Shown: piece by piece, positions 8,364 to 30,460 of the stretch
How positions within the stretch are numbered: the first letter of the stretch is position 1
Layout: each line of letters opens with the position of its first letter
Assembly: GCA_017857875.1 (NCBI GenBank)
Contig: JAFMCH010000013.1
Coordinates: forward strand, 1 to 37,884
Length of the DNA: 37,884 nucleotides
Origin: Actinomycetota bacterium
Lineage (GTDB): Bacteria > Actinomycetota > Actinomycetes > S36-B12
Direction: 5' to 3'
The notes under the pieces: model-generated
The model's input: the letters and a program-made list of their open reading frames with translations, nothing else
What the model was told of the DNA's origin: nothing
Database searches by the model: none
Program-made: the position numbers and the translations under genes

Positions 8364-9599
8364 TCAATCGGGTGGATCTAGCAGCCGGGCCGGTTGCACA
8401 GCGCCGTCACCAAACCGCCGCCGCACGTCGTCGGCCGCGCGCTCAGCGGCGCGCCACTCCAGCGGGTCAGCGGTGTCCTGAGGAAGCAGGGATAACTGAT
8501 CGACACGCTCACCATCGCCGGTCAAGCCCTCAAGCCGCACGCCAACAAGACGAACCCGCACCCGCTGCAGTCCAAGACCGGCGTATAGGTCTTTCACCAC
8601 GGCATACACCTCATGGGCGATGTCAGTCGGCGTGTCTTGGGTACGCGAGCGGGTAACAGTCGTGAAGTCGGAAAATCGCACCTTGATCGCGATAGTTCGA
8701 GCGGACAGTTGTCGCACCCGAGCTCGATGGGCGACTCGTTCGGTCAGTCTGAGTAATTCACGCAGGATCAACTCAGGGTCATCGACATCACGCTCGAAGG
8801 TGCTCTCATTGCTGATGCTCTTATCGGGAGCATCAGGGATGACAGCGCGATCATCACGCCCCCAGGCCAGGTCGACTAAATGGCTGCCGGTCGAGGCACC
8901 GAGGGCCCGAGTCATGGTTTCGAGGGGGGTGTGGGCGATATCGCCGATAGTGCGCAAGCCCAGATGGCGCAATCGATCATTGGTGCGGTCACCCACTCCG
9001 CCGAGGGCGCTGACCGGCAGCGGGTGCAAGAACGCGAGGGTGTGATCCACCGGCACCACCAGCAAACCATCTGGTTTGGCCACGGTGGAGGCAAGTTTGG
9101 CGACGAACTTTGAGGCGGCGACGCCGACGCTGCAGGTGATATGTGTCTGGGTTTCAACACGCTCGCGAATGAGTTGACCAATGCTGGTGGGGCTCCCCAG
9201 GCGTCGACGCGCACCGGCAACATCGAGAAATGCCTCATCAAGGCTGAGCGGTTCAACAAGTGGCGTGATGGAGGCGAAAATCTCCATCACCTGATGACTG
9301 ATCTGGTGATAGCGGTCGTGATGGGGGGTGATGACCGTGGCATCGGGGGCGATCCGTCGTGCCCGTGCCATCGGCATTGCTGCGTGGACTCCCAAGGCAC
9401 GGGCTTCATACGTGGCCGATAGCACCACCCCGCGGGCGCCACCGCCGATTATGACCGGGGTACCGCGCAGGTCTGGACGGTCGATGAGTTCGACAGAGGC
9501 GTAGAAGGCATCCATATCAATGTGCAAGATTGAGCAGTCGGTGTCATCAGTGCCCATAGCGAGCTCACCGGCCAGATGAGACAGGGAACGTCGACTCAT
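8364..9599 (-). CDS. dinB: DNA polymerase IV (Y-family translesion polymerase)
   Basis: A 411-residue Y-family polymerase. Metal-binding carboxylates are intact: Asp28 in HIDMDAFYASVE and Asp121-Glu122 in LSLDEAFLDV. It is therefore a catalytically competent DinB rather than the non-catalytic ImuB often paired with DnaE2. A QLSLLP sequence near the C-terminus resembles the sliding-clamp binding motif. Its ATG (9599) overlaps the dnaE2 stop (TGA at 9598-9596), implying translational coupling. A start at Met15 is possible, but the overlap favours the longer form. As the last gene of the cassette behind the LexA box, it is probably damage-inducible. It inserts nucleotides opposite lesions, with reduced fidelity. 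Confidence 0.94.
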   Translation of the reverse strand: MSRRSLSHLAGELAMGTDDTDCSILHIDMDAFYASVELIDRPDLRGTPVIIGGGARGVVLSATYEARALGVHAAMPMARARRIAPDATVITPHHDRYHQISHQVMEIFASITPLVEPLSLDEAFLDVAGARRRLGSPTSIGQLIRERVETQTHITCSVGVAASKFVAKLASTVAKPDGLLVVPVDHTLAFLHPLPVSALGGVGDRTNDRLRHLGLRTIGDIAHTPLETMTRALGASTGSHLVDLAWGRDDRAVIPDAPDKSISNESTFERDVDDPELILRELLRLTERVAHRARVRQLSARTIAIKVRFSDFTTVTRSRTQDTPTDIAHEVYAVVKDLYAGLGLQRVRVRLVGVRLEGLTGDGERVDQLSLLPQDTADPLEWRAAERAADDVRRRFGDGAVQPARLLDPPD

Positions 9600-12500
9600 C
9601 GCGATACCCGTACCGGAATCGGCGCGGACAACACAGCATCGCGTACTGCCTGCGGTCCCTCATTCATCCACTGATCATGGAGCACGCGAAGATCCCAGCA
9701 GCCCGTTGCTCGAATAGACACTCCGCGAGGGCCGGTTCGACGCAGTACTCCACGCACAAGAAGCATCGATGCCGACAGCAAGGTGGTGGCATAGTCGGCT
9801 TGCACATCGTCGAAAAATGCCACATCAACAGGCCCTGTTGCATCATCAAGGGTGAGGAAGATGACGCGTCGACCGCTGCGCACCGGAGGTGTCTGGGTAA
9901 TGATTTTTATGCCAGCCACTACAAGGGTCGACTGAGAACGTCGCGTAAGAAGATCACGGGCACGAGTGACCTGCAGGTCGGCCAACATCGAGTCATAGAA
10001 GTCCACTACGTGGCAACTCACATCAATACCCAACACATCCATTTCAGCACGCACTCGTTCAGCAGTGGTCATCTCAGGAAGTCCAGTAGGCAATGCGGGA
10101 ATTTTTTCTTTAACGTCACTCAACATAAGCTGCTGACCTTTATCGTTCGCGGGTTGGGCGCGACGGCGAAACCCACGAGCAAGATCGGCTGCCTGCAGCA
10201 ACAGATCGCGTCGTGTGACTCGGGCTCGTTGCCGCGATGGGAAACCACCACCGGATTCGGTGCGAAAGTTAAGCCCATACAGAGAGTCAAATGCACCAGC
10301 CATCAACAACTTTTCGACAAGAGCCAGTGGGAGTCCGGCACGAAAAAAAAAGTCGGGCAGATCTTGGTAGGGGCGATTGTCGATGATTCGCTGGGCATCT
10401 GCGATGCCCAGACCAGAAACCTCCAGAAGCGATAATCGAATACCATAGTCGTCTGAATCTGCTACCTGCTCCAACACGTAACTGGTATCTGACGCATTAA
10501 CGTCGAGGCCGAGAATCTCAATACCCATATTGCGAGCATCATCAATGATCAGGCGTTTGGGATACATGCCTGGATCATGAGTCAAGACACCGGCAAAAAA
10601 TGCAGCCGGGTAGTGGGCTTTAAACCAGGCTGACTGATAGGTCGGTAATGCAAAAGCTGCCGCGTGTGCTTTACAAAACCCAAAAGCGGCGAATGCTCGC
10701 AGCACCTCCCACACACGTTGCACCGTGGCCTGGTCATAGCCGCGACGGACAGCGGTGGGAATAAACCAAGCCTCCACTTCATCTCGGATCATCGTGTTCT
10801 TCATGCTCCGACGTGTCTCATCTGCCTCGGCAAGGGAACATCCGGTCATCACAGAAATAATGCGCAACACCTGTTCATGGAAAACCACCACACCGTGGGT
10901 CTCGGCAAGGATGGGGCGTAGGTCTTCATGCAGATAGGTGGCCTGCGTCCAGCCTTGTCGGGCCGAAAGAAAGGGGGTGATCATGTCGGACTTGACCGGC
11001 CCAGGGCGAAACAGCGAAATATCAACGATGAGGTCATGAAATGTCTCGGGTGCAAACTTACCGATGAGTTCGCGCTGCCCGGGTGACTCGATTTGAAAAC
11101 AACCCAGGGTGCGAGTGGACTGGATCAGTGCGAATGTGGCGGCATCGTCACGGGGAATCCGCTCAAGATCAATGGGCGTATCGTCAACACGGGTAACCTC
11201 GGTTACCGCATGAGCCAGCGCCGATTGCATACGCACACCTAACACATCAAGTTTAAGAAAACCCATATGTTCGACATCATCTTTATCAAAGGATGTCATC
11301 GGGTAACCTGCGCCACTGGGCTCAATAGGAGTTCGGTCATGCAGACTCGCGTTGGCGATGATCACTCCGCAAGGATGCATCGCGATATGCCGCGGGAGGG
11401 CGTCTAGACCCTCTACTAAATCCAGCACCATGTCGAGTTCGCCACGGGCAGCCAATCGACCCACACCACTGTGTCGGAGTTCGGGAAGTTCTGCGAGCAC
11501 CGAACGAATATCGCGCGCTCTTACCTGCGGAAAGGTTTTAGCAATGGAATCAATATCAGCCGGTGACCAGCCCAAAGCTGCGCCAACATCACGCAGTGCG
11601 TGCCGAATACGATAGGTCTCTGGCATGGATACACAGGCCACGCGCTCTTTACCGAAACGATCAATGATGGCGTCGTACACATCAGTGCGTCGAGCTGATT
11701 CCACATCAATATCAATATCGGGCAGTTCACGTCGCAGCGTGGTTAAGAACCGCTCCATCAATAAGCCATGCTCCAACGGATCAACCCCAGAAATACCCAA
11801 CAGGTAGGTGATCACACTGCCCGCTCCAGATCCACGTGCTGCTACGCGAATATTCATGCTGCGCGTGAGATCAACAATCTGGGCGACCGTGAGAAAATAG
11901 TTGGCGAAACCCAAGGTGCTCACCGTGCGCAGCTCAGTGGCTAAGCGTTCGTGCGCGGCAGGCAACTGCGCAGCGGAATAACGCGATAACCCTTGCTCGC
12001 AGCGAGCCCGTAAAACCGCATCCGCTTGACCTTGACCAGGAAGGTCACGGTGGATGCTTTTCGGCAGTAAAAGATGATCCTCGGGCAAGACCACATCACC
12101 CATGCCGAGATCTGCCGGGGTGAGTGCGCAGTCAGTGGCCAACCTCGCGGCACTGGTGAGTAACCGCATCGCCGTATCGCTGGGAAGTCCAGCGGCAACT
12201 GAAATTTCTTGGGCTAAGGAGCCCATGAAATCGGTGTCGGCAAAAAATCCTTGAGCATTCACACGGTCACGGTGCCGATCATCAAGGGGTACAAGCCGTC
12301 GTGACGCATCTAGTACATCGGCGATGGGTGCCTGCTGCGCGGACAGATAACGCACCGAATGGGCAATGACACACGGCAGTTGGCGCTGGTTGGCCCAACC
12401 CAAAGTACGCGCTGCCACCGCGGTAGACAGCGGACCTTGCTCGTGTCGGTGCGAGGTGATTTGAATATGCAGATTTTCACCAAAGATGTTGCGCCAGTCT

Positions 12501-13009
12501 TGTAACTGTTCATCAGCCTGGGCATAACGACGCTTTGCAATGGATGCCACAATCGGTGAGTCAGGACCCATCAGAGCAACAAGACCATCGGCGTGTGCAG
12601 CGATATCCGCGCGGGTAATCGCCACGGGTGCACGGGTGTAATACAGCGAGAGCAACCGACACAGGGAAGACCAGCCCTGCCGATTACGAGCGAGCAACAC
12701 CAGTCGGGGCACACGAGGTGCTCGCCAGGTACTGCCGTGTACCGGGGTGCGCTGCGCAACTGCCTGCTGGCCATCACTTAGCGCTAGGTCGACTCCCAGC
12801 ACGGGAGCCACACCAGCGTGAACACATGCGCGAATGAATCGAACCGCACCACGCACCCCATCACGATCGGTGAGTGCTAGTGCCGGCTGGCCAAGCTCTA
12901 CTGCGCGCGCCACAAGATCAGTCGGGGTTGTCACCCCGTATTGCAATGAGTAGGAAGAGGCCACGTGTAAATGTGAAAAAGGAACCGTGGCGTATGGCGA
13001 CACAGTCAC
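9596..13009 (-). CDS. dnaE2: Error-prone DNA polymerase III alpha-type subunit (DnaE2-like)
   Basis: A 1137-residue C-family polymerase starting at GTG 13009, only 3 bp after the HEPN gene. The N-terminal PHP domain begins with HLHVASSYSL and ALTDRDGVRG. The polymerase active-site triplet is at residues 430-435 (PDIDID), with the third Asp region in FLKLDVLGVR. Helix-hairpin-helix and OB-fold segments follow toward the C-terminus. Its position in a cassette with DinB, HEPN and DUF6504 genes, and not with replication genes, points to the damage-inducible mutagenic paralogue and not the replicative DnaE1. The middle of the gene is visibly more A+T-rich than its neighbours and contains a nine-T run on the coding strand (codons 887-889, Phe-Phe-Phe). 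Confidence 0.9.
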   Translation of the reverse strand: MTVSPYATVPFSHLHVASSYSLQYGVTTPTDLVARAVELGQPALALTDRDGVRGAVRFIRACVHAGVAPVLGVDLALSDGQQAVAQRTPVHGSTWRAPRVPRLVLLARNRQGWSSLCRLLSLYYTRAPVAITRADIAAHADGLVALMGPDSPIVASIAKRRYAQADEQLQDWRNIFGENLHIQITSHRHEQGPLSTAVAARTLGWANQRQLPCVIAHSVRYLSAQQAPIADVLDASRRLVPLDDRHRDRVNAQGFFADTDFMGSLAQEISVAAGLPSDTAMRLLTSAARLATDCALTPADLGMGDVVLPEDHLLLPKSIHRDLPGQGQADAVLRARCEQGLSRYSAAQLPAAHERLATELRTVSTLGFANYFLTVAQIVDLTRSMNIRVAARGSGAGSVITYLLGISGVDPLEHGLLMERFLTTLRRELPDIDIDVESARRTDVYDAIIDRFGKERVACVSMPETYRIRHALRDVGAALGWSPADIDSIAKTFPQVRARDIRSVLAELPELRHSGVGRLAARGELDMVLDLVEGLDALPRHIAMHPCGVIIANASLHDRTPIEPSGAGYPMTSFDKDDVEHMGFLKLDVLGVRMQSALAHAVTEVTRVDDTPIDLERIPRDDAATFALIQSTRTLGCFQIESPGQRELIGKFAPETFHDLIVDISLFRPGPVKSDMITPFLSARQGWTQATYLHEDLRPILAETHGVVVFHEQVLRIISVMTGCSLAEADETRRSMKNTMIRDEVEAWFIPTAVRRGYDQATVQRVWEVLRAFAAFGFCKAHAAAFALPTYQSAWFKAHYPAAFFAGVLTHDPGMYPKRLIIDDARNMGIEILGLDVNASDTSYVLEQVADSDDYGIRLSLLEVSGLGIADAQRIIDNRPYQDLPDFFFRAGLPLALVEKLLMAGAFDSLYGLNFRTESGGGFPSRQRARVTRRDLLLQAADLARGFRRRAQPANDKGQQLMLSDVKEKIPALPTGLPEMTTAERVRAEMDVLGIDVSCHVVDFYDSMLADLQVTRARDLLTRRSQSTLVVAGIKIITQTPPVRSGRRVIFLTLDDATGPVDVAFFDDVQADYATTLLSASMLLVRGVLRRTGPRGVSIRATGCWDLRVLHDQWMNEGPQAVRDAVLSAPIPVRVSR
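10343..10351 (-). repeat. Nine-base homopolymer inside dnaE2
   Basis: Nine consecutive A on the plus strand read as three TTT codons (Phe887-889) in dnaE2. Homopolymers this long are uncommon in G+C-rich coding DNA and are prone to slippage. Loss or gain of one base would truncate the polymerase well before its C-terminal domains. Confidence 0.9.
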
Positions 13010-13012
13010 TGA

Positions 13013-13435
13013 TTACCCCGTGGCCGGCAAAAACTCTTGCCCCGATGCATTCAATAATGCAGCGGTCTGGTCATAGAACCGCTGAGCATCACGCAGAAGA
13101 TCATCGGCCTCACGAGCGGTCACTACGGGAACACCCGCTTGAGCCAAGGATCGCTTAGCCGAACCGGCGGCAAAGAACTGCGCCCACTCGCTCAGTTGAG
13201 GCGCCACCTTCACCAATAGCACCCACACGCTTCGCGGCCGAGATCGCTGGCCACTGATGGACTGGCTACTGATGGACTGGCTACTGATGGGATTGGCCCG
13301 CGCAGCCAGCACTGCCGCCGCTGCGCGTAGGGCGGCAAGATGCGCCTGGGCATAACGTTCGGCAGGCCGTTCGGCCATGGCGGCAGCGGTGAGCCCGCGT
13401 TGGGCTGTGGCTAATAGTTGAACCGATGTATTCAT
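13013..13435 (-). CDS. SAV_6107 family HEPN domain protein
   Basis: A 140-residue, helix-rich protein matching my memory of the actinobacterial SAV_6107 HEPN family (ERYAQAHLAALRAAAAVLAAR near the start, SVWVLLVKVAPQLSEWA in the middle). It contains R27-x4-H32, which fits the RX4-6H motif of HEPN ribonucleases, although it lies in an N-terminal helix and not in the usual C-terminal one. The family is commonly encoded beside DnaE/DinB genes; its biochemical role is not established. The start ATG at 13435 has GGGGGA 7-8 nt upstream. Residues around 50-65 are a Ser-Ile-Ser-Gln repeat (see 13253-13290). Spacing is 13 bp from DUF6504 and 3 bp to dnaE2, so it is an operon member. Confidence 0.85.
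   Translation of the reverse strand: MNTSVQLLATAQRGLTAAAMAERPAERYAQAHLAALRAAAAVLAARANPISSQSISSQSISGQRSRPRSVWVLLVKVAPQLSEWAQFFAAGSAKRSLAQAGVPVVTAREADDLLRDAQRFYDQTAALLNASGQEFLPATG
13253..13290. repeat. 15-bp tandem repeat, about 2.5 copies, in frame
   Basis: The unit ACTGATGGACTGGCT occurs twice in full and once in part, inside the HEPN gene. Because 15 is a multiple of three, it codes for a repeating five-residue Ser/Ile/Gln linker, and copy-number changes would keep the frame. It lies between the two conserved helical parts. Confidence 0.9.
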
Positions 13436-17887: not shown

Positions 17888-17922
17888 GGATCCTCTTCGA
17901 CTAGTGCGAAGCCGAGGATTCC
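17888..17922. terminator. Possible bidirectional terminator between convergent genes
   Basis: An interrupted hairpin (GGATCCTCTTCG with CGAA-GCC-GAGGATTCC) lies just past the anti-sigma stop and overlaps the last codons of the saccharopine-dehydrogenase-like gene. There is no U-run on either side, so termination activity is uncertain. Confidence 0.3.
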
Positions 17923-19124
17923 TCGCGCAGTTCCCACTCTTGACCGTAGCCATCGCGCATCAATGCCAGGTACACCGATGCGTCAAAGGCCTCCGGGCCC
18001 TTCACTCCAACGCCAGACCACTGGCCGGTCGCAAGGAGCTCCAACGCAATGACCGGATTCATCGCCGTCTGCCACACGACGGCCTGGGTGCCGTAGTCGC
18101 GCATGGTCTTGGCGTTGTCAGCCAGGTGGTACAGATACACCGCGCGCGGTTGGCCGGCTAGATCAAGACCGGTGACCTGCGTGCCGGCACACGTCACACC
18201 GCTCATCCGATCTCCCAGCGTTGCCGGGTCGGGCAGGCATGCGGCCACCACATCGCGGGGGCTTACCTGTTGGCCACCCACGCTGACTGGATCCGTGCGG
18301 TCAAGACCGAGCGTGTGCAACACGCGCAGCACCTCGATGAACTCCTCACCCAGCCCGTACTTAAAGGTCACTCGATCGCAGTCGATCCATCGAGGTATCA
18401 ACATGACTTCCTCGTGCTCAACGTTTACGCACTCCACCGGACCAATGCCACCTGGAAAATCAAAAACCTCGGGCTGACTGAATGGCTCGGTCGTAAACCA
18501 GCCACGGCCGCGTTCATAGATAACCGGCGGATTCAAGCACTCTTCGATGGTGGTCCAAATGGAAAAAGACGGGGCGAAGTCGTAACCGGCCACAACCAAA
18601 TTTGCCCCATCACGAACCCCGATTTCAGACACCGACGAAAACAGGTGATCGGCAGCGTATCGAGCGAATACATCCGACAGACCTGGCTCAACCCCGATAC
18701 CGCACAGGGCAAGTCGGCCCCGGTTCTCCCAATCAGCGGTCTGAGCGAATTGCTCTTGACCAAGGGTCACAAAAGTCTGCGCAAACGGTGCCTCAGGGTG
18801 CGGCTGGGACAGGCTCATCGCCGTATCAAGATAGTCGCAGTCCGCAGCCAAGGCGGCCCTAAAGATGGGCATCACAAATCGCGGATCAACAACATTGAGC
18901 ACGTGGGTGATCTGATGATCACGACATACCTGCTCCACCGCAGCGGAATCTGATGCGTCCAGGGCAACCGCACTGAAGCGCGGATCATCCACTCGATCAA
19001 CCACGTGCACTGCGCGTTCAAAGGAATAATCAGCAACAAGCCAGGACTCAAAAAAGGTCCGACGAGCAGAAATCAATGCCGCCGATGTGCCCACGCCACC
19101 GGCACCAATCGCTAGTACTCGCAT
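17901..19124 (-). CDS. Saccharopine dehydrogenase family protein
   Basis: A 407-residue NAD(P)-binding enzyme. The N-terminus RVLAIGAGGVGTSAA is the Rossmann motif. The pattern HVLNVVDPRFVMPIFRAALAADCDYLDTA and the later NPVIALELLATGQWSGVGVKGPEAFD are characteristic of saccharopine/carboxynorspermidine dehydrogenases. Such enzymes make or split a secondary amine between an amino acid or amine and an aldehyde or keto acid. The second of two adjacent ATGs is preferred (6 nt from AAGGAGG; the first is only 3 nt away). It is the last gene of the pot operon, 29 bp after a FAD amine oxidase gene, so a polyamine- or lysine-derived substrate is likely. Which one cannot be told from sequence. Confidence 0.86.
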   Translation of the reverse strand: MRVLAIGAGGVGTSAALISARRTFFESWLVADYSFERAVHVVDRVDDPRFSAVALDASDSAAVEQVCRDHQITHVLNVVDPRFVMPIFRAALAADCDYLDTAMSLSQPHPEAPFAQTFVTLGQEQFAQTADWENRGRLALCGIGVEPGLSDVFARYAADHLFSSVSEIGVRDGANLVVAGYDFAPSFSIWTTIEECLNPPVIYERGRGWFTTEPFSQPEVFDFPGGIGPVECVNVEHEEVMLIPRWIDCDRVTFKYGLGEEFIEVLRVLHTLGLDRTDPVSVGGQQVSPRDVVAACLPDPATLGDRMSGVTCAGTQVTGLDLAGQPRAVYLYHLADNAKTMRDYGTQAVVWQTAMNPVIALELLATGQWSGVGVKGPEAFDASVYLALMRDGYGQEWELREESSASH

Positions 19125-19153
19125 CATGTTCCTCCTTGACACCACATGGGCAA

Positions 19154-20566
19154 TTAGCTGTCGAAGCCCAGGCCTAGGCGATCGAGGGTCCGCAACCACA
19201 GATTGCGCCTACCCGCGTTATTGTCCGCCGCGGCAATAGATCGACGGGTCAGTGAAATACCGATATCACGCAAAGGTCGGGGCGGGAACGGGATCGGCTT
19301 CGTTCGCACCATCGGCAATCGAGTTCGTTCAGTGTCTTGCCCCCACAGCAGATCCAGCATGACCTGGGCACCGAAACGAGACGCACCCACTCCGAGTCCG
19401 GTGAAGCCAAGACTGTAGGAGACTCGCCCTTCATTGGCAGTGCCCCAGAAAGCGCTGAACCGCGAACACGTATCGATGGCCCCTGCCCAAGCGTGCGTGA
19501 ACCGAAGACCCTCCAATTGTGGGAACGTCTGCTCAAAGTGAGCGGCCAGGCGGCCAAAGGCTTCAGGATTGTTCTCCCGATGCGGGCCCATATCGCTGTA
19601 GTAGCTTGCATCGTAGCCACCCCAGAGAATGCGACCATCTTCACTCATCCGGTAATAATGGAATTGATTGCCGGCATCGCTCACACCCTCACGGCCAGTC
19701 CAGCCAATGTCCGCACGCTGCGTCGGCGAGAGTGGCTCGGTCATCAAGACGGAGTCGTAAACCGGCACGATGTAGTGATCAAGTCGTTTGAGTAATGGTG
19801 GGTATGCGCTGGTCGCAAGAGCTACCCGACCGGTTCGCACTCGGCCGTGATCAGTACCGACCATCATGCCGCTACCCATCCGAGACATCGTGCGCGCGGG
19901 CGTGTGCTCAAATATGCGCACTCCCCGCCGGGCAACTGCTTCGGCCAATCCCCAGGCCAGGCGTGCCGGGTCGATCATCGCGACCCCGTGCGCGTCGAAA
20001 GCACCCGCAAGATAGGTCGGCGAGTTAACGCGTTCCCGCGTCTCCTCCGCACTGAGAAACTCAAGCCCCGCACCCAGACTGTTGGCCTCGTCGACCATTT
20101 CCCGCAACTCACCCACCTGATAGGGCGCCACGGCTACGTCGATCTCACCGCTGCGTTGCAGGTCACAATCAATCTGCTCAGCCTCAATGGTGGCGATGAT
20201 GCCATCGAGGTTTTCCTGGCCTAGGCGATGCAGCGTAGGCATCTGGGCAGGCCAACGGGCGAATCCGTTGGAAATGCCATGGGTCAGGGAAGCAGCGACG
20301 AATCCACCATTTCGACCGGTCGCAGCGCCCGCAACGCGGCCGCCATCAAGGAGCACAATGTCGATGCCAGGGTTCCGCTCGGCGGCAAGGTAGGCAGTCC
20401 ATAGACCGCTGAATCCGCCACCGATAATGGTCAGGTCGGCGGTGATGGGCTCAACCAGCGGTGGACGCGGTTCGGGTCGAGCAGGATTGTCCAGCCAGAA
20501 GGGGGTGTGTTGTACATCGCGCAGCATTGCTGCTGCCTGTGCGGAAACTTCGTGGGTAAACGTCAC
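19154..20566 (-). CDS. FAD-dependent amine oxidase, DAO family (PuuB-like)
   Basis: A 470-residue flavoprotein of the DAO (glycine/D-amino-acid oxidase) family. The FAD motif IIGGGFSGLWTAYLAAE is at about residues 47-63, followed by GAATGRNGGFVA, and the C-terminal GFTGLGVGASRFGAQVMLDLL closes the FAD site. The layout resembles gamma-glutamylputrescine oxidase and related polyamine-pathway oxidases. The gene sits 12 bp after potC in the same direction, so the substrate is probably an imported polyamine or its derivative. GTG 20566 is the start, with no strong Shine-Dalgarno. A similar enzyme (30445) is on the other side of the island. Confidence 0.87.
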   Translation of the reverse strand: MTFTHEVSAQAAAMLRDVQHTPFWLDNPARPEPRPPLVEPITADLTIIGGGFSGLWTAYLAAERNPGIDIVLLDGGRVAGAATGRNGGFVAASLTHGISNGFARWPAQMPTLHRLGQENLDGIIATIEAEQIDCDLQRSGEIDVAVAPYQVGELREMVDEANSLGAGLEFLSAEETRERVNSPTYLAGAFDAHGVAMIDPARLAWGLAEAVARRGVRIFEHTPARTMSRMGSGMMVGTDHGRVRTGRVALATSAYPPLLKRLDHYIVPVYDSVLMTEPLSPTQRADIGWTGREGVSDAGNQFHYYRMSEDGRILWGGYDASYYSDMGPHRENNPEAFGRLAAHFEQTFPQLEGLRFTHAWAGAIDTCSRFSAFWGTANEGRVSYSLGFTGLGVGASRFGAQVMLDLLWGQDTERTRLPMVRTKPIPFPPRPLRDIGISLTRRSIAAADNNAGRRNLWLRTLDRLGLGFDS

Positions 20567-20578
20567 AATGCTTGAAGT

Positions 20579-21391
20579 CTATGTCGAGATGCCGACCGCG
20601 GCCTCAAGGCTGCGCCGACGCCGATGATTGATCCATTGCACTACGAGGACGAACACCAAGGCCACGAGGAATACCAGCGTTGCGAGGGCATATGCCTGCA
20701 CGGGAATACCACGTTGGGCCGCGCCCCAGATGTACACGGGGAAAGTAACCAGCGTGCCTGCATTGAAGAAGGTGATGATGAAGTCATCGAAACTCAAGGC
20801 GAAGCCCAGCAGCGCAGCACCCAAAATGCCTGGAAGGACCAGTGGGAACGTCACGTATCGGAAGGTGGCCGCAGGATTCGCATAAAGGTCACGGGAGGCT
20901 TCTTCTAATCGGGGATCCATGCCCTGCAACCGCGCCTTAACAGCCACCACGATGAAAGAAATGGTGAACATGATGTGCGCGATGAGGACGGTCCAAAAGC
21001 CGAGCGGGAAGGCAAGATTTAAGAACAATGCCAACAGACTTGAACCCAATACAACCTCGGGTGTTGCCATCGGCAAGAAGATCAATAGGTTGGTCGTATC
21101 CCTGCCACGAAATCGATAGCGAACCAGCGCGAATGCAATCATCGCACCAAAAATTGTCGCCACAAGCGTTGCGAATAGGCCGATCTGAATACTCAAGACA
21201 AACGATGAACACACTCCAGGAACCCCGCAGATATTCGTCCACGCGTCAATAGAGAACTCATTCCATGAGGTGTTGTATTTGCCGACCGGTGAGTTGAAGC
21301 TCAAGACACCCACGACCGCGATGGGTACGAACAGGTAGACCAAAACCAGGATCGCGATGATGCCAATCAAGTGGCGGCGTAACCAGCGCAT
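20579..21391 (-). CDS. potC: Spermidine/putrescine ABC transporter permease PotC
   Basis: A 270-residue inner-membrane permease with about six hydrophobic segments. The EAA loop that contacts the ATPase is visible as EASRDLYANPAATFRYVTFPLVLPGI. FALSFDDFIITFF is the PotC-type signature. It pairs with PotB. Start ATG 21391 shares one base with the potB stop (TGATG). It takes up polyamines in a PotABCD complex. Confidence 0.93.
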   Translation of the reverse strand: MRWLRRHLIGIIAILVLVYLFVPIAVVGVLSFNSPVGKYNTSWNEFSIDAWTNICGVPGVCSSFVLSIQIGLFATLVATIFGAMIAFALVRYRFRGRDTTNLLIFLPMATPEVVLGSSLLALFLNLAFPLGFWTVLIAHIMFTISFIVVAVKARLQGMDPRLEEASRDLYANPAATFRYVTFPLVLPGILGAALLGFALSFDDFIITFFNAGTLVTFPVYIWGAAQRGIPVQAYALATLVFLVALVFVLVVQWINHRRRRSLEAAVGIST

Positions 21392-22281
21392 CAGACCAAA
21401 TCCTCCGTCCCGGCACGACGGATATAGATAAAGACCACGGTCAAGATGATCGCCATCAAGATGAACGAGAGGGCGCTGGCTACCGGATAATCGCGAAACT
21501 GAAGGAAGTTCACTTGAATCGCTGTGCCCACCATGCTGTCGCTGGGTGATCCCAAGAGTCTTGCGTTGATGAAGTCACCACTGGCTGGGATGAACGTGAG
21601 CAGGGTGCCGGCCACGACACCGGGCAAACTCAAGGGCCAAATAACCTTGCGAAAACCCGTGAACGGACGGGCATACAGGTCATTGGCAGCCTCGATAAGT
21701 CGCGGGTCAATCTTTTCCAGCGCCGCGTAGAGGGGCAAAATCATAAAGGGCAAGAAGTTGTAGGTCAGCCCTAGCACCACGCCTATCGGTGTGTTCAGTA
21801 TTCGATTATCGGGGAGCAGATTCAATGCGTTGAAAAACGAAGTGATCGCACCTTCATCAGACAAGATCGTCCGCCAGGCATAGGTGCGCAGTAGAAAAGA
21901 TGCGAAAAACGGCGCTACCACCAGTACCAGCATGAGGGCACGCCATCGGCCGGCCTTGAATGCAATGAAGTACGCCAACGGGTACGCCAGAAGCAACGCG
22001 AGAATCGTTGCGATACTCGCATAGACAAATGACCGAATGAACTGCGGCCAATAGGCACTCAACGCATCAGCGTAGTTGGAAACTTCAAAGCCCAGTGTGT
22101 AGACGCCTGAACGTCCAGGCACCGGAGCCTGCAGGCTCGTAATCAACAAGGTGATGATCGGCACCACGAAAAACACAGCCAACCACGCGATGCCTGGAAG
22201 CAGAAGCAGATATCCGGTGCGCGGTCGTCGCTGTGTTGACACGCTGGTGGCCGCAACCGGTGTTGAGGTCGTGGTCGCCAC
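21391..22281 (-). CDS. potB: Spermidine/putrescine ABC transporter permease PotB
   Basis: A 296-residue permease with an N-terminal membrane segment after a Thr/Arg-rich tail and about six segments overall. Its EAA loop is IEAANDLYARPFTGFRKVIWPLSLPGVVAG. LLRTYAWRTIL and SGDFINARLLGSP are PotB landmarks. GTG 22281 follows the potA stop by 2 bp, so it is translationally coupled. Confidence 0.93.
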   Translation of the reverse strand: MATTTSTPVAATSVSTQRRPRTGYLLLLPGIAWLAVFFVVPIITLLITSLQAPVPGRSGVYTLGFEVSNYADALSAYWPQFIRSFVYASIATILALLLAYPLAYFIAFKAGRWRALMLVLVVAPFFASFLLRTYAWRTILSDEGAITSFFNALNLLPDNRILNTPIGVVLGLTYNFLPFMILPLYAALEKIDPRLIEAANDLYARPFTGFRKVIWPLSLPGVVAGTLLTFIPASGDFINARLLGSPSDSMVGTAIQVNFLQFRDYPVASALSFILMAIILTVVFIYIRRAGTEDLV

Positions 22282-22283
22282 CG

Positions 22284-23402
22284 TTATACCTGTGGGCTAA
22301 GGCCGAAGGAGTGCTCCACCAGCCAGTGCACCACAACTTCGTCGCCGGGGCGCAGAGGCTGGCTCGCCGACCTATTTTGCTCGAAGACGATCCACTCATC
22401 GCCCCACGAGGTCATCACCATGTACTGGGTTGATACCCCGGCAAATGAGGTGTCGGTGATCTTGCCTGAGACCTGATTAGCCTGTGCGGCAACTGAGTCG
22501 GCCTGACCAGCTGGCACAATGCCAAGCTTTTCCGGTCGCACACCAAGATAGGCCGGACCCTGATCAACGACGGATCGGCTGGCCGGAACGCCGAAGCGCT
22601 GACCATAGGCAGAAAAGACGAGTTCATCACCCGACGATTCAACGATCTGACCCTCAATCTCATTTGACTGCCCGAGAAAAGTGGCCACAAAGCGCGTTGT
22701 CGGCAGGTCGTAAATGTCAACGGGGGCTCCCATTTGCTCGATACGCCCCATATTCATCACCGCCACCGTGTCAGCCATCGTCATTGCTTCTTCTTGATCA
22801 TGCGTAACGTGAACAAAGCTGGTGCCCACCTCGGTTTGGATGCGCTTGAGCTCGATTTGCATCTGCCGACGCAATTTAAGATCAAGGGCACCCAGCGGCT
22901 CATCCAAGAGCAAGACGCCAGGATTGTTAATCAGCGCCCGAGCCACCGCCACACGCTGTTGCTGACCACCTGATAACTGACCGGGTTTGCGTCGAGCAAG
23001 AGGTCCCAGTTCAACGAGTTCGAGCATCTGGTTGACCTGCCCGGCTACGTCCTTAATGCCTCGACGACGCAGACCGAAGGCCACGTTTTCGAACACATCA
23101 AGGTGGGGAAACAGCGCGTAGGACTGAAAAACTGTGTTGACCGGCCGCTTGAAGGCCTTGAGGCTGGTGAGATCACGGTCACCGAGCATGATCTGACCGG
23201 CCGTAGGGTCTTCCAGGCCAGCCACCATGCGCAAGGTTGTGGTCTTGCCACACCCCGAGGGCCCCAGTAGTGCAAAAAACGATCCCGCCGGGATCGTGAG
23301 GGTGAGGTCATCGACGGCAATGAAGTCGCCGAAGGACTTGGTGAGGTTGATCAACGTCAAATCCGCAACATCAACCCCGTTGGCACCCGGCGCCAGTGTC
23401 AC
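22284..23402 (-). CDS. potA: Spermidine/putrescine ABC transporter ATPase PotA
   Basis: A 372-residue ABC ATPase. Walker A is GPSGCGKT (47-54), followed by the Q-loop in VFQSYALFPHLDV, the signature LSGGQQQRVAVARAL and Walker B LLLDEPLGALD. The C-terminal third is a TOBE-type regulatory domain (YLGVRPEKLGIV). GTG 23402 has AAGGAGG 6-7 nt upstream. It powers polyamine import with PotB, PotC and PotD. Confidence 0.95.
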   Translation of the reverse strand: MTLAPGANGVDVADLTLINLTKSFGDFIAVDDLTLTIPAGSFFALLGPSGCGKTTTLRMVAGLEDPTAGQIMLGDRDLTSLKAFKRPVNTVFQSYALFPHLDVFENVAFGLRRRGIKDVAGQVNQMLELVELGPLARRKPGQLSGGQQQRVAVARALINNPGVLLLDEPLGALDLKLRRQMQIELKRIQTEVGTSFVHVTHDQEEAMTMADTVAVMNMGRIEQMGAPVDIYDLPTTRFVATFLGQSNEIEGQIVESSGDELVFSAYGQRFGVPASRSVVDQGPAYLGVRPEKLGIVPAGQADSVAAQANQVSGKITDTSFAGVSTQYMVMTSWGDEWIVFEQNRSASQPLRPGDEVVVHWLVEHSFGLSPQV

Positions 23403-23441: not shown

Positions 23442-24671
23442 TTACAGGCCTATGGCTGCTTGGAACTCGCGCTGATAGGCCTCATCCTGCTCGGCAGTGA
23501 GATCCATGAACACGTAGGAGGAGTCGAGCTTTTCTTGATCCGGGAAAATAAAGGGATTATCGGCCAACTCCGGATCGATCGCCTGCATGGCCTCTTTGGC
23601 TCCAGTGACCGGGCACAGGTAGTTGATGTAGGCGGCCACCTCGGCGGCAACGACCGGATCGTAGTAGTAGTTCATGACCTGTTCGGCGTTCTTCTTGTGT
23701 GTCGACGTTGAGGGGATCAACATGTTGTCCGTCCACAGCGTCGCGCCACTTTCTGGCAGCGAGAAGCCGTACTCCTCACCAAGGGTGAGCACATCTCCGG
23801 ACCAACCGATCACCGCCAGAACATCGCCCGTTCCCAGCGCGTCCAGATAGTCGTTGCCGGCGACCTGACGGATCTGGCCATTATCGATTTGCTCGGCAAG
23901 CGCGGCGATGGCTTGCTGGAACTGCTCATCGGTGAAGTTCGATGGGTCGTTGCCCTGCCAGGCCATGATCACACCGACTGTGTCGCGCATTTCCGACAAA
24001 ACCGTGATGCGACCACGCAAAGCAGGGTCGAAAAGTTGATCGAGTGACGTCAGGGTATCGACGCCAAGGGTGCTTTGAATGCCGGGAATGTTGTACCCCA
24101 GACCGGCGAACCCGCCCTGCCAAGGCAGGGTGAAATCACGCGGTTCGTCGAACGACACATTTTCCAGCCGGGGAATGAGGTTGACCGAGTTCGGGATCAT
24201 CGCCTTGTCGAGTTTTTGGGCAAAACCGTTACTAATCCACAGACCCGCCATCCAATCGGTAAGCACGACCAGGTCGCGATCGATGGACTGGCCCTGCTCT
24301 AACTGTGTACGCACCTTGGCGTAGAACTCGTTGTTGTCGTTGACGTCCTCGTTGTAGGAAACCGTGATTCCGGTGGCCTCCTCGAAGGCTTCCAGCGTGG
24401 GGCGACTGCCCGAATCCTCATCGAGGTCAAGGTACTCAACCCAGTTTGACCACGACACCGTCTTCTCGGTGTCCGACATATCTTCCGGACCCGTGGGCAC
24501 CGGCGCGGGACCAGTGGTGGGGTCATCGGCTCCACCGCCGGCGCCACACGCCGCCGCAGCGACCGCTGCCGTGCCAAGCCCGGCAACCTGGAGCAGTCGT
24601 CGTCGGGTAACCGCCGAGCGAGTGAGGCGAACAATATCGGCTGCCTCTGGGGACAGTGGGCGCTTCATCAT
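23442..24671 (-). CDS. potD: Spermidine/putrescine-binding lipoprotein PotD
   Basis: A 409-residue periplasmic-type binding protein. The N-terminus has a twin-arginine motif (TRRRLLQ, Arg23-25) and a lipobox ending at Cys42 (AAAAC), so it is predicted to be Tat-exported and lipid-anchored. A linker rich in Gly, Pro and Thr follows, then a solute-binding domain starting TVSWSNWVEYLDLDE with NVNDNNEF-like ligand-lobe elements and a DTLTSLDQLFDPALRGRI segment typical of PotD/PotF. A Shine-Dalgarno (AAGGAG) lies upstream of ATG 24671. It is the first gene of the potD-A-B-C block, 107 bp after the second aldehyde dehydrogenase gene. Confidence 0.93.
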   Translation of the reverse strand: MMKRPLSPEAADIVRLTRSAVTRRRLLQVAGLGTAAVAAAACGAGGGADDPTTGPAPVPTGPEDMSDTEKTVSWSNWVEYLDLDEDSGSRPTLEAFEEATGITVSYNEDVNDNNEFYAKVRTQLEQGQSIDRDLVVLTDWMAGLWISNGFAQKLDKAMIPNSVNLIPRLENVSFDEPRDFTLPWQGGFAGLGYNIPGIQSTLGVDTLTSLDQLFDPALRGRITVLSEMRDTVGVIMAWQGNDPSNFTDEQFQQAIAALAEQIDNGQIRQVAGNDYLDALGTGDVLAVIGWSGDVLTLGEEYGFSLPESGATLWTDNMLIPSTSTHKKNAEQVMNYYYDPVVAAEVAAYINYLCPVTGAKEAMQAIDPELADNPFIFPDQEKLDSSYVFMDLTAEQDEAYQREFQAAIGL

Positions 24672-24778: not shown

Positions 24779-26221
24779 TTATTGCTGCCGATTCGCAAAG
24801 ATGATCCGGTGCCAGGGCTTGTGACTACGAGCTGAGATATCCCAAGAGACATGCTTGATCACCGTGTACTCCTCCATTGAGTAAAGCGACATGTCTTTGC
24901 CGAATCCCGAGCCCTTCATGCCTCCGTGGGGCATCTCGCTGACGATCGGGATGTGGTCATTGATCCAAACACACCCGGCCTTAATTTCACGCTGGGCGCG
25001 CATGGCGCGATAGACGTCATTGGTCCATGCCGAGGCTGCTAGCCCAAAGCGCGTGTCATTGGCCAACCTGATGCCCTCATCGTCGGTATCAAAAGGTAAG
25101 ACCACCAGGACGGGGCCGAAGATCTCGTCCTGAACGATCTCGTCATCTTGGGCGACCGAGGTCACCACGGTGGCAGGGTAGAACGCACCGGCAGCGAGAT
25201 CACCCCCCGGCAGTTGCCCGCCGGCAGTCACACGTGCGCCGGATGCAACCGCACGGTCGATGAACCCGGCAACTCGGTCACGTTGGGTGAGGGAAACCAG
25301 TGGGCCCATGTCTGTGTCAGTTGCGCGTGGGTCACCCATCCTAATTTCTGCGAACACCTGCGACACCCCGGTGAGAAAGCGATCGAACACTGATCGCTGA
25401 ACATAGGCCCGGGTGGCCGCGGTGCAGTCTTGACCGGTGTTAATCAACGCACCAGCGGCAGCGCCTTGAATCGCGGCATCAATATCGGCATCATCGAAGA
25501 CGACGAACGGAGCCTTACCGCCGAGTTCCATATGCACCCTTGCCGCCCGTTGCGCCGCAAGGGTCATCACCCGACGACCGACAGGGGTCGATCCCGTAAA
25601 TGACACCATGTCAACATCGCCGTGACCAACCAAGGCCTCACCAACTGTCGGCCCAGTTCCGTTCACGATATTGATCACTCCGGTGGGAATACCGGCAGCA
25701 ATTGCATCTTCAGCAAGCATCAGCGACGTCAACGGAGTGATCTCAGCTGGCTTGAGCACGATGGTGTTGCCGGCCGCAATCGCCGGCAGTATCTTCCACA
25801 TTGCCATCTGAAGCGGGTAGTTCCATGGCGCAATCGAGCCGACCACACCCACTGCTTCACGACGAATAACCGACGTGTGATCGGGGTCGTACTCCCCCGA
25901 CGCCAAGCCTTGCAGTTGACGCGCAGCGCCGGCGAAGAAGTTCACGTTGTCGATCGAGCCCGGCACATCAAATTCGCTAGCCAGCCGGAGCGTCTTGCCC
26001 GTTTGACGCGACTCGACCATGGCGTACTCAGATGCCCGGGAACTCACCCGATCCGCGAGGGCCATGAGTGCATCGGAGCGAGCAACTGGGGGTTGGCTAG
26101 ACCACTCGGCGAAGGCGGTCCGCGCTCGCCGAACAGCGCGGTCTACTTCCTCAACCGTGTCATAGGAAACAACGTCGATGACGCTGCCGTCAAAGGGGTC
26201 GGTGATGGGTTGATCAGTCAC
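24779..26221 (-). CDS. Aldehyde dehydrogenase, gamma-aminobutyraldehyde type
   Basis: A 480-residue NAD(P)-dependent aldehyde dehydrogenase. Catalytic Cys266 is in NTGQDCTAATR and the general base Glu232 is in HMELGGK. APWNYPLQMAMWKILPAIAAGNT is the cofactor region. The GQDC active-site context and the ending SMEEYTVIKHV fit 4-aminobutyraldehyde / aminoaldehyde dehydrogenases. It should oxidise the aminoaldehyde made by deamination of putrescine or cadaverine. GTG 26221 lies 3 bp after the stop of a second, similar enzyme, and potD follows. Confidence 0.9.
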   Translation of the reverse strand: MTDQPITDPFDGSVIDVVSYDTVEEVDRAVRRARTAFAEWSSQPPVARSDALMALADRVSSRASEYAMVESRQTGKTLRLASEFDVPGSIDNVNFFAGAARQLQGLASGEYDPDHTSVIRREAVGVVGSIAPWNYPLQMAMWKILPAIAAGNTIVLKPAEITPLTSLMLAEDAIAAGIPTGVINIVNGTGPTVGEALVGHGDVDMVSFTGSTPVGRRVMTLAAQRAARVHMELGGKAPFVVFDDADIDAAIQGAAAGALINTGQDCTAATRAYVQRSVFDRFLTGVSQVFAEIRMGDPRATDTDMGPLVSLTQRDRVAGFIDRAVASGARVTAGGQLPGGDLAAGAFYPATVVTSVAQDDEIVQDEIFGPVLVVLPFDTDDEGIRLANDTRFGLAASAWTNDVYRAMRAQREIKAGCVWINDHIPIVSEMPHGGMKGSGFGKDMSLYSMEEYTVIKHVSWDISARSHKPWHRIIFANRQQ

Positions 26222-26224
26222 AGG

Positions 26225-27670
26225 TCAACTATCGAGATTCGCCATCACGTGCTTAATGCGCGTGTAGTCCTCAAATCCGTACATGGACAAGTCCTTACCG
26301 TAACCCGATTGCTTGAATCCACCGTGGGGCATCTCAGCGACCAGCGGTATGTGGGTGTTGATCCACACACAGCCGAAGTCCAGCGCACGCGACATGCGCA
26401 TCGCACGACCGAAATCTTTGGTCCACACCGAGGACGCCAGCCCGTATCGCACACCGTTGGCCCAGCGCAACGCTTCGGACTCGTCGGTAAACTTCTGCAC
26501 CGTAATGACCGGCCCAAAGATCTCGTCTTGAATCAATTCGTCGTTTTGCTTGAGCCCAGCGATGAGCGTTGGCTCAATGAAGTAGCCGCGATCTCCCTGA
26601 CGATGCCCGCCTGCCATGACCTGCGCATGCGCTGGAGCACGCTGGATGAACCCGAGCACGCGTTCGAGCTGATGGACGTTATTGACCGGAGGCACCAGGG
26701 CGTCACCACCTGGACCGTCCGCGAGGGTTGTCTGGGTCGCTCTGGCCTGTTCGGTAAGCGCAGCAACAAATTCATCGTGAATCCCCGGGGCCACCAAGAC
26801 TCGAGTCGCTGCCGTGCAATCTTGGCCAGCATTGAAATATCCGGCGACGGCTAGAGTTTCGGCCGCCGCTTCAATATCGGCGTCGTCGAATACCACAACG
26901 GGGGCCTTACCACCTAGTTCTAGGTGAACCCGCTTGACATTTTGGGCGGCCTCAGTAGCGACTTCAATGCCCGCGCGAACCGATCCGGTGATCGACACCA
27001 TGTCGGGTCGGTCGTGCTTGACCAACGCCCGACCCGTTTCTCGATCGCCGCAGATGACATTGAAGACGCCCGGCGGCAATAACTCGGCTTCGTTGATGAG
27101 CTCGGCCATGCGAACAGTGGAGGCAGGAGTCGTGTCGGAGGGCTTCAAGACCACCGTGTTACCGGCGGCAATCGCCGGGATGTACTTCCATACCGCCATC
27201 ATCATGGGATAATTCCAAGGCGTCACCTGCCCGATCACACCCACCGGCTCGCGGCGAATAAAGGAGGTGAATCCGGCCATGTATTCACCCGCTGCGCGCC
27301 CCTCAAGTACCCGAGCCGCACCGGCGAAAAACCGGATCTGATCGATCATCGGGGGGACCTCCTCCGATGCGGTCAAGGCCAGCGGCTTACCGGTGTTATT
27401 GCTCTCCAACTCGATCAGTTCCGACGCATGGGCCTCGAACAGATCCGCAATGGCTAGTAGGGCTTTTTGCCGTTCTGCCGGAATCGTGTCGCGCCAGCCG
27501 GCGAACGCCGCGTCTGCGGCCCGGTAAGCACGATCAACGTCCTCAGCGCCGGACTCTGCGACCTGGGCCCACACCTGTCCGGTGGTTGGATCGATCAGAT
27601 CGCGAGTGCGGCCATCGGCGGCACCGACCGACTCCCCATTAATCACATTTCTAATCTCGCGGTGACTCAT
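26225..27670 (-). CDS. Aldehyde dehydrogenase, gamma-aminobutyraldehyde type (paralogue)
   Basis: A 481-residue aldehyde dehydrogenase with catalytic Cys285 (NAGQDCTAATR) and Glu in HLELGGK. It has the same architecture as the following gene but is clearly diverged, so this is an old duplication and not a recent one. Tandem paralogues suggest different chain lengths or branches (C4 and C5 aminoaldehydes, or succinate/glutarate semialdehyde); this is inference. ATG 27670 is preceded by GAGGAAGGA. It is the first leftward gene from the control region shared with the Lrp/AsnC regulator. Confidence 0.9.
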   Translation of the reverse strand: MSHREIRNVINGESVGAADGRTRDLIDPTTGQVWAQVAESGAEDVDRAYRAADAAFAGWRDTIPAERQKALLAIADLFEAHASELIELESNNTGKPLALTASEEVPPMIDQIRFFAGAARVLEGRAAGEYMAGFTSFIRREPVGVIGQVTPWNYPMMMAVWKYIPAIAAGNTVVLKPSDTTPASTVRMAELINEAELLPPGVFNVICGDRETGRALVKHDRPDMVSITGSVRAGIEVATEAAQNVKRVHLELGGKAPVVVFDDADIEAAAETLAVAGYFNAGQDCTAATRVLVAPGIHDEFVAALTEQARATQTTLADGPGGDALVPPVNNVHQLERVLGFIQRAPAHAQVMAGGHRQGDRGYFIEPTLIAGLKQNDELIQDEIFGPVITVQKFTDESEALRWANGVRYGLASSVWTKDFGRAMRMSRALDFGCVWINTHIPLVAEMPHGGFKQSGYGKDLSMYGFEDYTRIKHVMANLDS

Positions 27671-27834: not shown

Positions 27835-28314
27835 GTGTCCAGTCTTACGCATCCACGCCCGACCATGGCACGTCTTGATGACGTGTCTAAGGCGATCATT
27901 TCCCAACTCCAACAAGATGGGCGCCGATCCTATGGGTCCATCGGCAAGGCGGTCGGCCTCTCCGAGGCAGCCGTGCGCCAGCGTGTGCAACGTCTTATTG
28001 ACACCGGCGTGATGCAAATCGTTGCCGTGACCGACCCCCTGCAGGTGGGATTTCCTCGGGCCGCGATGGTGGGCATCAATGTCGACGGCGACGTCGAGAG
28101 CGTGGCCGATGCGGTGCAAGCCATGCCAGAGGTGGACTATCTGGTGATTTGCGCCGGCGGATTCGACCTGATGGCCGAGGTGGTCGCAGAAGATGATGAC
28201 CATCTGCTTGAAATCGTCAACCGCCGCATCCGCGGTTGTCCAGGAGTTCGCAGTACCGAAACCTTCGTCTACCTGAAGTTACGCAAGCAGATCTACTCAT
28301 GGGGCACGCGTTAA
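27835..28314 (+). CDS. Lrp/AsnC family transcriptional regulator
   Basis: A 159-residue regulator. The N-terminal helix-turn-helix is LDDVSKAIISQLQQDGRRSYGSIGKAVGLSEAAVRQRVQRL, followed by the RAM/AsnC ligand-binding domain (AAMVGINVDGD...VDYLVICAGGFDLMAEVV). Such proteins form octamers or dimers that sense amino acids or amines. It lies between the leftward aldehyde dehydrogenase/pot genes and the rightward aminotransferase genes, the expected place for the local regulator. The GTG at 27835 is accepted with a leaderless promoter; an ATG at 27865 would give a 149-residue protein that also fits the family. Confidence 0.9.
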   Translation: MSSLTHPRPTMARLDDVSKAIISQLQQDGRRSYGSIGKAVGLSEAAVRQRVQRLIDTGVMQIVAVTDPLQVGFPRAAMVGINVDGDVESVADAVQAMPEVDYLVICAGGFDLMAEVVAEDDDHLLEIVNRRIRGCPGVRSTETFVYLKLRKQIYSWGTR

Positions 28315-29777: not shown

Positions 29778-30460
29778 GTGACCCAGGCCTAACGCCGGAC
29801 GGCCCGCAACCCGGGTCAACGAAACGCACGAAAATTCGGCGAATTCCTGATCGTGCGGTTACCTCTCCTACGGTGCGCGATGAAGTGCTCGATGCCGGAC
29901 TCGTCGCACATGTGGCTGTTATCGATGCGGGTCAACCCTTTGTGGTGCCGGTGGCATACGCGCGAAGTGGAAAGGAGGTCCTCTTTCACGGCTCATCGGC
30001 TTCTCGGCTGTTCAAGACTCTTGCGGACGGTCAACCGACCTGCCTGAGCGTCACGCTACTAGACGGATTAGTGCTGGCCCGCAGCGCTTTTGAGTCAAGC
30101 ATGAACTACCGCAGTGTCATGGTGATCGGAAGTCCGCGACTCCTCGAAGGTGACGAAAAGGCTGAGGCCCTGCGTCGTATCAGCGATCATCTACTGCCTG
30201 GTCGCTGGAGTGACATCCGTCCACCCAGCGATCAGGAGAGCAAGGCAACGATCGTGCTCGCACTGTCTCTCGATGAATGCTCAGTCAAAGTGCGCACCGG
30301 AAACCCTGAAGACGTCCCGGAAGATCTTGTTGACCCAAATTTTGCACAAGTCTGGGGCGGAACAGTGCCTCTCACCGAATCATTTGGGACCGCTGTACCC
30401 GATGAGTTCAGTGGCGGAATCCAAGCGCCCAGTTACATCGAGACATGGACACGGTCGTGA
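29774..30460 (+). CDS. Pyridoxamine 5'-phosphate oxidase-like flavin split-barrel protein
   Basis: A 228-residue protein of the FMN-binding split barrel superfamily, NimA-like branch. Recognisable are GLVAHVAVIDAGQPFVVPVAYA and the second-strand pattern EVLFHGSSASRLFKTLADGQPTCLSVTLLDGLVLARS. No specific enzyme assignment is possible; these proteins bind FMN, F420 or heme. GTG 29774 overlaps the aminotransferase stop (GTGA), and its own stop overlaps the oxidase gene, so it is locked into the polyamine operon. A role in PLP or flavin supply is a guess. Confidence 0.8.
   Translation: MSDPGLTPDGPQPGSTKRTKIRRIPDRAVTSPTVRDEVLDAGLVAHVAVIDAGQPFVVPVAYARSGKEVLFHGSSASRLFKTLADGQPTCLSVTLLDGLVLARSAFESSMNYRSVMVIGSPRLLEGDEKAEALRRISDHLLPGRWSDIRPPSDQESKATIVLALSLDECSVKVRTGNPEDVPEDLVDPNFAQVWGGTVPLTESFGTAVPDEFSGGIQAPSYIETWTRS

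Follow-up and report, generated by a model that had tools for sequence, protein, structure and literature searches.

The window analyzed here is a stretch of 37,884 nucleotides whose minus strand carries an operon with the gene order ALDH2-ALDH1-potDABC-FAD oxidase (OX1)-SDH and gaps of -1 to 107 nt between genes. The saccharopine-dehydrogenase-like gene (SDH; positions 17901 to 19124, minus strand) is the last gene of this operon and lies 26 to 29 nt after OX1. It encodes a protein of 407 aa, with the ATG start at 19124 or, in frame, at 19127, and a strong Shine-Dalgarno motif, AAGGAGG, read from the sequence, is at 19131 to 19137 on the minus strand. An alternative GTG start at 19199 would yield 432 aa and overlap OX1; this start is not needed, since most homologues align from residue 1. 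The gene is real, and a chance open reading frame is excluded because an alignment of 46 homologues has about 100 invariant columns. We also found that its product contains the Pfam domain pair PF03435 and PF16653, both above their gathering scores (Sacchrp_dh_NADP, 65.5 bits with a cut-off of 25.1; Sacchrp_dh_C, 84 bits with a cut-off of 31). Promoter and terminator scans gave scores no better than those of shuffled sequences. The genes beyond position 17901 are convergent with the operon and encode, between 14759 and 17875, a DUF4397 protein, a sortase, a sigma-70-family factor, and an RskA-like anti-sigma protein. Farther away, at 8364 to 13435, genes for an impB/mucB/samB-type polymerase, a putative 1137-aa DNA polymerase III alpha-like protein, and a SAV_6107-like HEPN protein are consecutive, a three-gene row that looks like a mutagenesis cassette.

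The other operon genes, all on the minus strand, suggest a role in polyamine catabolism. OX1 (19154 to 20566) encodes a DAO-family FAD oxidoreductase of 470 aa, recognized by a family-model match, and is preceded by genes for potC-like (20579 to 21391) and potB-like (21391 to 22281) permeases and a potA-like ATPase (22284 to 23402), each assigned as an open reading frame that recurs as a conserved neighbor. Because the potD/potF-like binding protein (23442 to 24671) matches PotF (96.7 bits) and PotD (87.1 bits) below their cut-offs, we infer polyamine transport by the pot genes, a reading backed by two aldehyde dehydrogenases, ALDH1 (24779 to 26221; 682.9 bits) and ALDH2 (26225 to 27670; 701.1 bits), that both exceed the cut-off of 615 for the aminobutyraldehyde dehydrogenase subfamily. 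A gamma-aminobutyraldehyde dehydrogenase is among the closest solved structures of ALDH2. Divergent from the operon, on the plus strand, are genes for an Lrp/AsnC-type regulator (27835 to 28314), a class-III aminotransferase (AT; 28377 to 29777; NF005102, 806.7 bits with a cut-off of 574), a pyridoxamine-phosphate-oxidase-like protein (29774 to 30460), and a second DAO-family FAD oxidoreductase, OX2 (30445 to 31824). The best NCBIfam match of both OX1 and OX2 is a putative aminophosphonate oxidoreductase model, with scores far below its cut-off. The first-pass annotation had placed SDH beside an amine oxidase; this is right in the sense that a DAO-family FAD oxidoreductase, a putative amine oxidase, adjoins it.

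The only strong sequence matches of the SDH-like protein to solved structures are carboxyspermidine dehydrogenases (CASDHs; 4INA, 8DEB, 4RL6, and 8H4Z). Its AlphaFold model (mean pLDDT, 92.3) matches the fold of CASDHs with Z scores of 45.6 to 53.2, rmsd values of 1.8 to 2.8, and 24 to 30% identity, followed by L-lysine 6-dehydrogenase (3ABI; Z score of 37.5, 16% identity), homospermidine synthase (4PLP and 6Y87; Z score of about 31, about 15% identity), and saccharopine dehydrogenases (1E5L, 2AXQ, and 5L78; Z scores of 25 to 30, 12 to 15% identity). Thus, by sequence and by predicted fold, the protein groups with CASDHs and not with saccharopine dehydrogenases. This comparison had been proposed in the first-pass annotation, whose assignment to the saccharopine-dehydrogenase-like fold family is borne out by the Pfam domains and the structure matches.

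Residue equivalences to BfCASDH were taken from a HMMER alignment and counted by hand, and thus come from aligned sequences only; conservation was counted over 194 family sequences in which all checked sites were aligned, after those below 45% identity or incomplete had been dropped. Catalysis by BfCASDH is assigned to Glu188, His228, Glu229, and Glu230 in the available part of its description (PMC10413350), and these residues align with E195, H237, E238, and E239 of the SDH-like protein. This catalytic set is kept across the family (E195, H237, and E238 in 194/194 sequences and E239 in 193/194), with the codons of H237-E238-E239 at 18408 to 18416 (minus strand). E194, C196, N198, E236, Q347, and Q352 are each found in all 194 sequences, and W190 in 193. 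The presence of the His-Glu-Glu triad, together with the lower fold similarity, argues against saccharopine, one of the substrates offered in the first-pass annotation. Where CASDH has the pocket stretch NFNPEINIRE, the SDH-like protein has SFSIWTTIEECLNPP (residues 186 to 200; 18525 to 18569, minus strand), in which E195 aligns with Glu188 and W190 takes the place of Glu183.

An acidic residue at the end of beta-2 is typical of NAD enzymes. In 193 of the 194 family sequences the residue mapped to this position by the HMMER alignment is an aspartate, D32 (codon at 19029 to 19031, minus strand), which would coincide with Ser34 of BfCASDH. Ser34 lines the NADP site of that enzyme, whose 2'-phosphate is held by Thr36 and Lys39 among others and which showed no turnover with NADH, according to the portion of the study available (PMC10413350). 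When the three positions Ser34, Thr36, and Lys39 were compared, the NADP-phosphate site was not recovered: D32 stands at Ser34, position 34 is mostly Asp, and the Lys39 equivalent is still basic (R37). The acid at D32 suggests NAD+ and therefore an oxidative direction, but the cofactor choice is not certain, since R37 is basic and a CASDH-type protein from another class of the same phylum (L298) is also acidic at the D32 position.

These residues also bear on whether the enzyme might act as a reductive trap, or like a homospermidine synthase, joining a released aminoaldehyde to another amine. Homospermidine synthase, in the parts available of two reports (PMC8489232 and PMC4725965), requires a cation-pi contact from Trp229 together with the triad Glu237-His296-Glu298, and its order of Trp, Glu, and His-x-Glu matches W190, E195, and H237-x-E239; it also uses NAD and, in a profile alignment, carries an acidic residue where beta-2 ends. 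However, the Trp-to-Glu spacing is 5 here and 8 in homospermidine synthase, so the tryptophans may not be equivalent, the fold match is weaker than that to CASDHs, and hhalign aligned only residues 3 to 162, the Rossmann half, with 19% probability. We therefore treat the active-site likeness as a lead only and regard such a joining reaction as improbable.

A role in biosynthesis, as a carboxyspermidine or carboxyaminopropylagmatine dehydrogenase that condenses putrescine or agmatine with aspartate semialdehyde, would fit the identity of the closest solved structures, and an agmatinase-family gene (AGM) adjoins SDH in many relatives, as in the operon of L298, whose gene sits between speA (arginine decarboxylase) and agmatinase. 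This neighbor first suggested the carboxyaminopropylagmatine route, which we rejected on the absence of the decarboxylase, the score, and the cofactor site. The NCBIfam carboxynorspermidine synthase model NF043000 matches the SDH-like protein over its whole length at 141.6 bits with a cut-off of 800, and the partner decarboxylase (nspC/CASDC, or CANSDC) exceeded the cut-off of its model in 0 of 246 class genomes, with eight weak matches; the control for this search was over the cut-off in 1 of 14. L298 itself differs, scoring 399 bits with NF043000, likewise below the cut-off, in its speA and agmatinase context. With the NADP ligands also largely lost, a biosynthetic role is very unlikely. The reductive trapping and carboxyspermidine chemistry that had been suggested for this gene are not supported as such, given the absence of CANSDC, the NAD-type site, and the changed pocket.

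We found the SDH gene in 30 of 59 relatives, in 109 of 246 class genomes, and, at a stricter threshold, in 48 of 246 phylum genomes, a few of these matches having only 30 to 48% identity. For named genomes, at least 592 pattern matches were obtained, of which 570 were confirmed and the best 80 kept; the matches listed include Micromonospora, Streptomyces, Mycolicibacterium, Microbacterium, Nocardioidaceae, and Candidatus Nanopelagicales, as well as a few metagenome-assembled genomes labeled Chloroflexi or Spirochaetaceae. Two loci (L008 and L015) and several Streptomyces matches have one internal stop in SDH, which may reflect alignment ends, sequencing errors, or pseudogenes. In annotated plasmid records, the clade is named only as a saccharopine dehydrogenase C-terminal domain-containing protein.

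Gene neighborhoods were scored for polyamine-module genes (pot, OX1, OX2, AT, ALDH, agmatinase-family AGM, GABA transaminase GABT, and SSADH) with per-gene identity thresholds. Among 85 loci from relatives and the class (30 from the relatives search and 55 chosen among class matches), 52 have a module gene within 10 kb of SDH, as do 48 of 80 named loci, which share some genomes with the first set; for other classes the figure is only 4 of 32, which counts against a polyamine-dehydrogenase reading. These are raw counts. Gene order varies among families, with an aldehyde dehydrogenase, pot, AGM, GABT, or an APC-family permease recurring beside SDH. In one arrangement AGM is between OX1 and SDH and GABT is convergent; elsewhere SDH directly follows potC, or follows ALDH2 (Nocardioidaceae loci L192, L193, and L196 and, in another class, L289 and L290), and at L267 and L274 pot-ALDH2 is divergent from SDH. 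The APC-family permease adjoins SDH in 14/85, 12/80, and 2/32 loci, in three orientations. SDH is thus associated with a conserved module of pot and aminobutyraldehyde dehydrogenase genes. The catabolic context proposed in the first-pass annotation is supported, and in many families SDH recurs together with aminoaldehyde dehydrogenase, oxidase, and pot genes. The AGM ureohydrolase (L043, 8327 to 9352, and its equivalents; TIGR01230, 201.3 bits with a cut-off of 174.3), found between oxidase and SDH in many relatives and absent from that place in the window, might be either an agmatinase or a guanidinobutyrase. Open reading frames of 464 to 693 aa in some polyamine clusters (L226, 12086 to 15049; L227, 6425 to 7969; L231, 7195 to 9276) had no Pfam match at 0.001, and some may be spurious. 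The Streptomyces coelicolor polyamine genes SCO5655 to SCO5679 have the same functions as the window module, and the part of their description available does not mention saccharopine (PMC5403932).

Many loci, in Streptomyces, mycobacteria, and acI-like genomes, have no polyamine gene nearby, which would suit a function outside polyamines, for example on an amino-acid amine such as lysine; the linkage to polyamine genes would then be secondary. The mycobacterial neighbors of SDH are a cytochrome P450, Tgt, and a CoA-transferase-type gene. Yet pot, AT, or OX1 is still present in most genomes with an unlinked SDH, the acI-like genomes have the polyamine module elsewhere, and we consider such a function rather unlikely. 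No common theme was found among the neighbors of unlinked SDH genes (MMPL, cholesterol-oxidase-like, formyltetrahydrofolate deformylase, Tgt, P450, GGDEF-EAL, and alpha/beta hydrolase). The P450 gene adjoins SDH in mycobacterial and several other loci (L198, L101, L105, L185, L189, L212, L218, L291, and L292), some of which also contain Tgt and a CoA-transferase-type gene. Two apparent links to amine metabolism were set aside: a flavin amine oxidase near SDH at three mycobacterial loci resembles phytoene dehydrogenase among solved structures, and a gamma-glutamylputrescine-synthetase-like gene at L291 and L292 scores 240.2 bits, far below its cut-off of 650.

In the 246 class genomes, SDH is present in 109, AT in 138, potB in 125, and OX1 in 120, and the 109 genomes with SDH include 85 with AT, 82 with pot, and 76 with OX1. 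At least one of AT, potB, and OX1 is found in 105 of these 109 genomes, compared to 62 of the 137 genomes without SDH; the Fisher P values are tiny but descriptive, given the relatedness among the genomes and the dominance of a few genera. Co-occurrence with the pot and oxidase genes, the lack of which had been named as grounds for dropping the polyamine reading, is therefore seen for the module, but SDH does not require OX1, the oxidase gene at 19154. Two observations count against a polyamine dehydrogenase: 28 class genomes contain AT, pot, and OX1 and lack SDH, and four genomes (G108, G136, and the near-complete G178 and G259) contain SDH without AT, pot, or OX1 at the thresholds used. These thresholds miss some genes, since G136 has AT, ALDH, and AGM beside SDH (locus L096).

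The 21 near-complete small genomes of one family (f31) separate SDH from OX1. Twenty of them have pot, and each of these 20 contains at least one of SDH and OX1: SDH alone in 6, OX1 alone in 3, and the two together in 11. The six genomes with SDH only (G082, G117, G131, G144, G194, and G229) all contain pot, ALDH, and a GABT orthologue at 59 to 60% identity; in five of them the operon consists only of ALDH2-binding protein-potABC and SDH lies at a separate place in the genome, and in G131 the polyamine operon adds AGM to these genes. At 1e-12 these six genomes gave no match resembling OX1, and they lack an AT orthologue, their best class-III aminotransferases being 28 to 43% identical to AT. 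A strict dependence of SDH on OX1 is thereby ruled out. The six genomes have an importer, ALDH, and GABT, so, as far as OX1 and AT are concerned, an enzyme that opens the amine would be missing unless it is SDH. Each also contains four to five genes of the PF01593 amine-oxidase family, as do genomes with OX1, and these may or may not oxidize amines; because of these genes and the class-III aminotransferases, SDH is not proven to be the sole candidate for the amine-opening step.

We give about even chances to the SDH-like enzyme being an NAD+-linked polyamine dehydrogenase that works in the direction of breakdown, a reading in which we infer cofactor, direction, and substrate alike. NAD+ would oxidize an imported polyamine at its C-N carbon, with H237 as the general base acting together with E195, E238, and E239, and water would then hydrolyze the imine, freeing an omega-aminoaldehyde (4-aminobutanal or 3-aminopropanal). 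ALDH1 and ALDH2 would convert the aminoaldehyde to GABA, and GABA transaminase would convert GABA to succinate semialdehyde. The chemistry would match what homospermidine synthase does in its first half-reaction, or what CASDH would do in reverse, ended by water. Spermidine would be the most likely substrate, because the coexistence of SDH with a putrescine-type AT in 85 of 109 genomes suggests that the two enzymes act on different substrates; putrescine or a gamma-glutamyl polyamine is possible. The same coexistence would also fit an enzyme that acts one step later, as an N-carboxyalkyl-amine dehydrogenase on a secondary amine made into a carboxylate by AT and ALDH. Its substrates might be N-(3-aminopropyl)-GABA, a desamino analogue of carboxynorspermidine, or putreanine, yielding a diamine and succinate or malonate semialdehyde; this is consistent with the retention of the equivalents of Glu188 and Glu229, thought to serve CASDH in binding its carboxylated aldehyde partner, and with the SSADH-like gene of some clusters. 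However, the pocket stretch is changed throughout, 24 of the 109 SDH genomes have no AT orthologue at the threshold used, and these substrates come from chemical reasoning, with no bacterial pathway evident from title or abstract among the open-access papers listed for putreanine. We find this later step unlikely.

A polyamine dehydrogenase of this kind would bear on how spermidine is cleaved in bacteria without spdH. Marine bacteria use spermidine without spdH, as stated in the part available of a SAR11 study (PMC8437039), and acI actinobacteria are predicted polyamine importers in the available text of another report (PMC5574706). Tentatively, a saccharopine-fold NAD+-dependent spermidine dehydrogenase would provide a cleavage route that needs no flavin, heme, aminotransferase, or gamma-glutamylation and may open spermidine in streamlined freshwater actinobacteria, in which only the importer and aldehyde dehydrogenase genes are left of the known operon. 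We found no description in the open-access papers searched of this clade or of saccharopine-fold NAD+ polyamine cleavage, in keeping with the suggestion in the first-pass annotation that the step is unrecognized. The clade is a widespread, apparently uncharacterized actinobacterial relative of a spermidine-making enzyme. Among the matches listed, this one conserved enzyme is common to Streptomyces, Micromonospora, Mycolicibacterium, Microbacterium, Nocardioidaceae, and freshwater lineages, and assigning its function would settle a step shared by many actinobacteria and end a misleading saccharopine annotation.

The SpdH and gamma-glutamylation (Puu) enzymes are unrelated to the SDH-like protein. 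Both routes would occupy the position in the pathway that we propose for it (SpdH reaction in the part available of PMC8437039). L-Lysine 6-dehydrogenase (3ABI) shares the fold and is, as proposed for the SDH-like enzyme, an amine dehydrogenase that depends on NAD, and saccharopine dehydrogenase has the same Pfam domain pair; the available portion of the BfCASDH study states that both 3ABI and the saccharopine dehydrogenase 1E5Q lack the His-Glu-Glu sequence (PMC10413350), and the SDH-like protein differs from saccharopine dehydrogenase by having H237-E238-E239. Homospermidine synthase appears to share the NAD-type acid at beta-2, the Trp-Glu-His-x-Glu order, and polyamine chemistry, a likeness known from sequence alone and with a different residue spacing. 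CASDHs (BfCASDH 8DEB, HpCASDH 8H52, 4INA, and 4RL6) share the whole-length fold and the catalytic set of Glu and His-Glu-Glu, but the SDH clade has largely replaced the NADP-phosphate ligands, has the pocket SIWTTIEECLNPP instead of NFNPEINIRE, and lies without a decarboxylase partner in a catabolic context. Since the fold and catalytic residues agree and three other CASDH features tested (the NF043000 score, the NADP-phosphate site, and the partner decarboxylase) do not, the SDH clade is best placed as a CASDH-like sister clade that is distinct from CASDH, saccharopine dehydrogenase, and homospermidine synthase.
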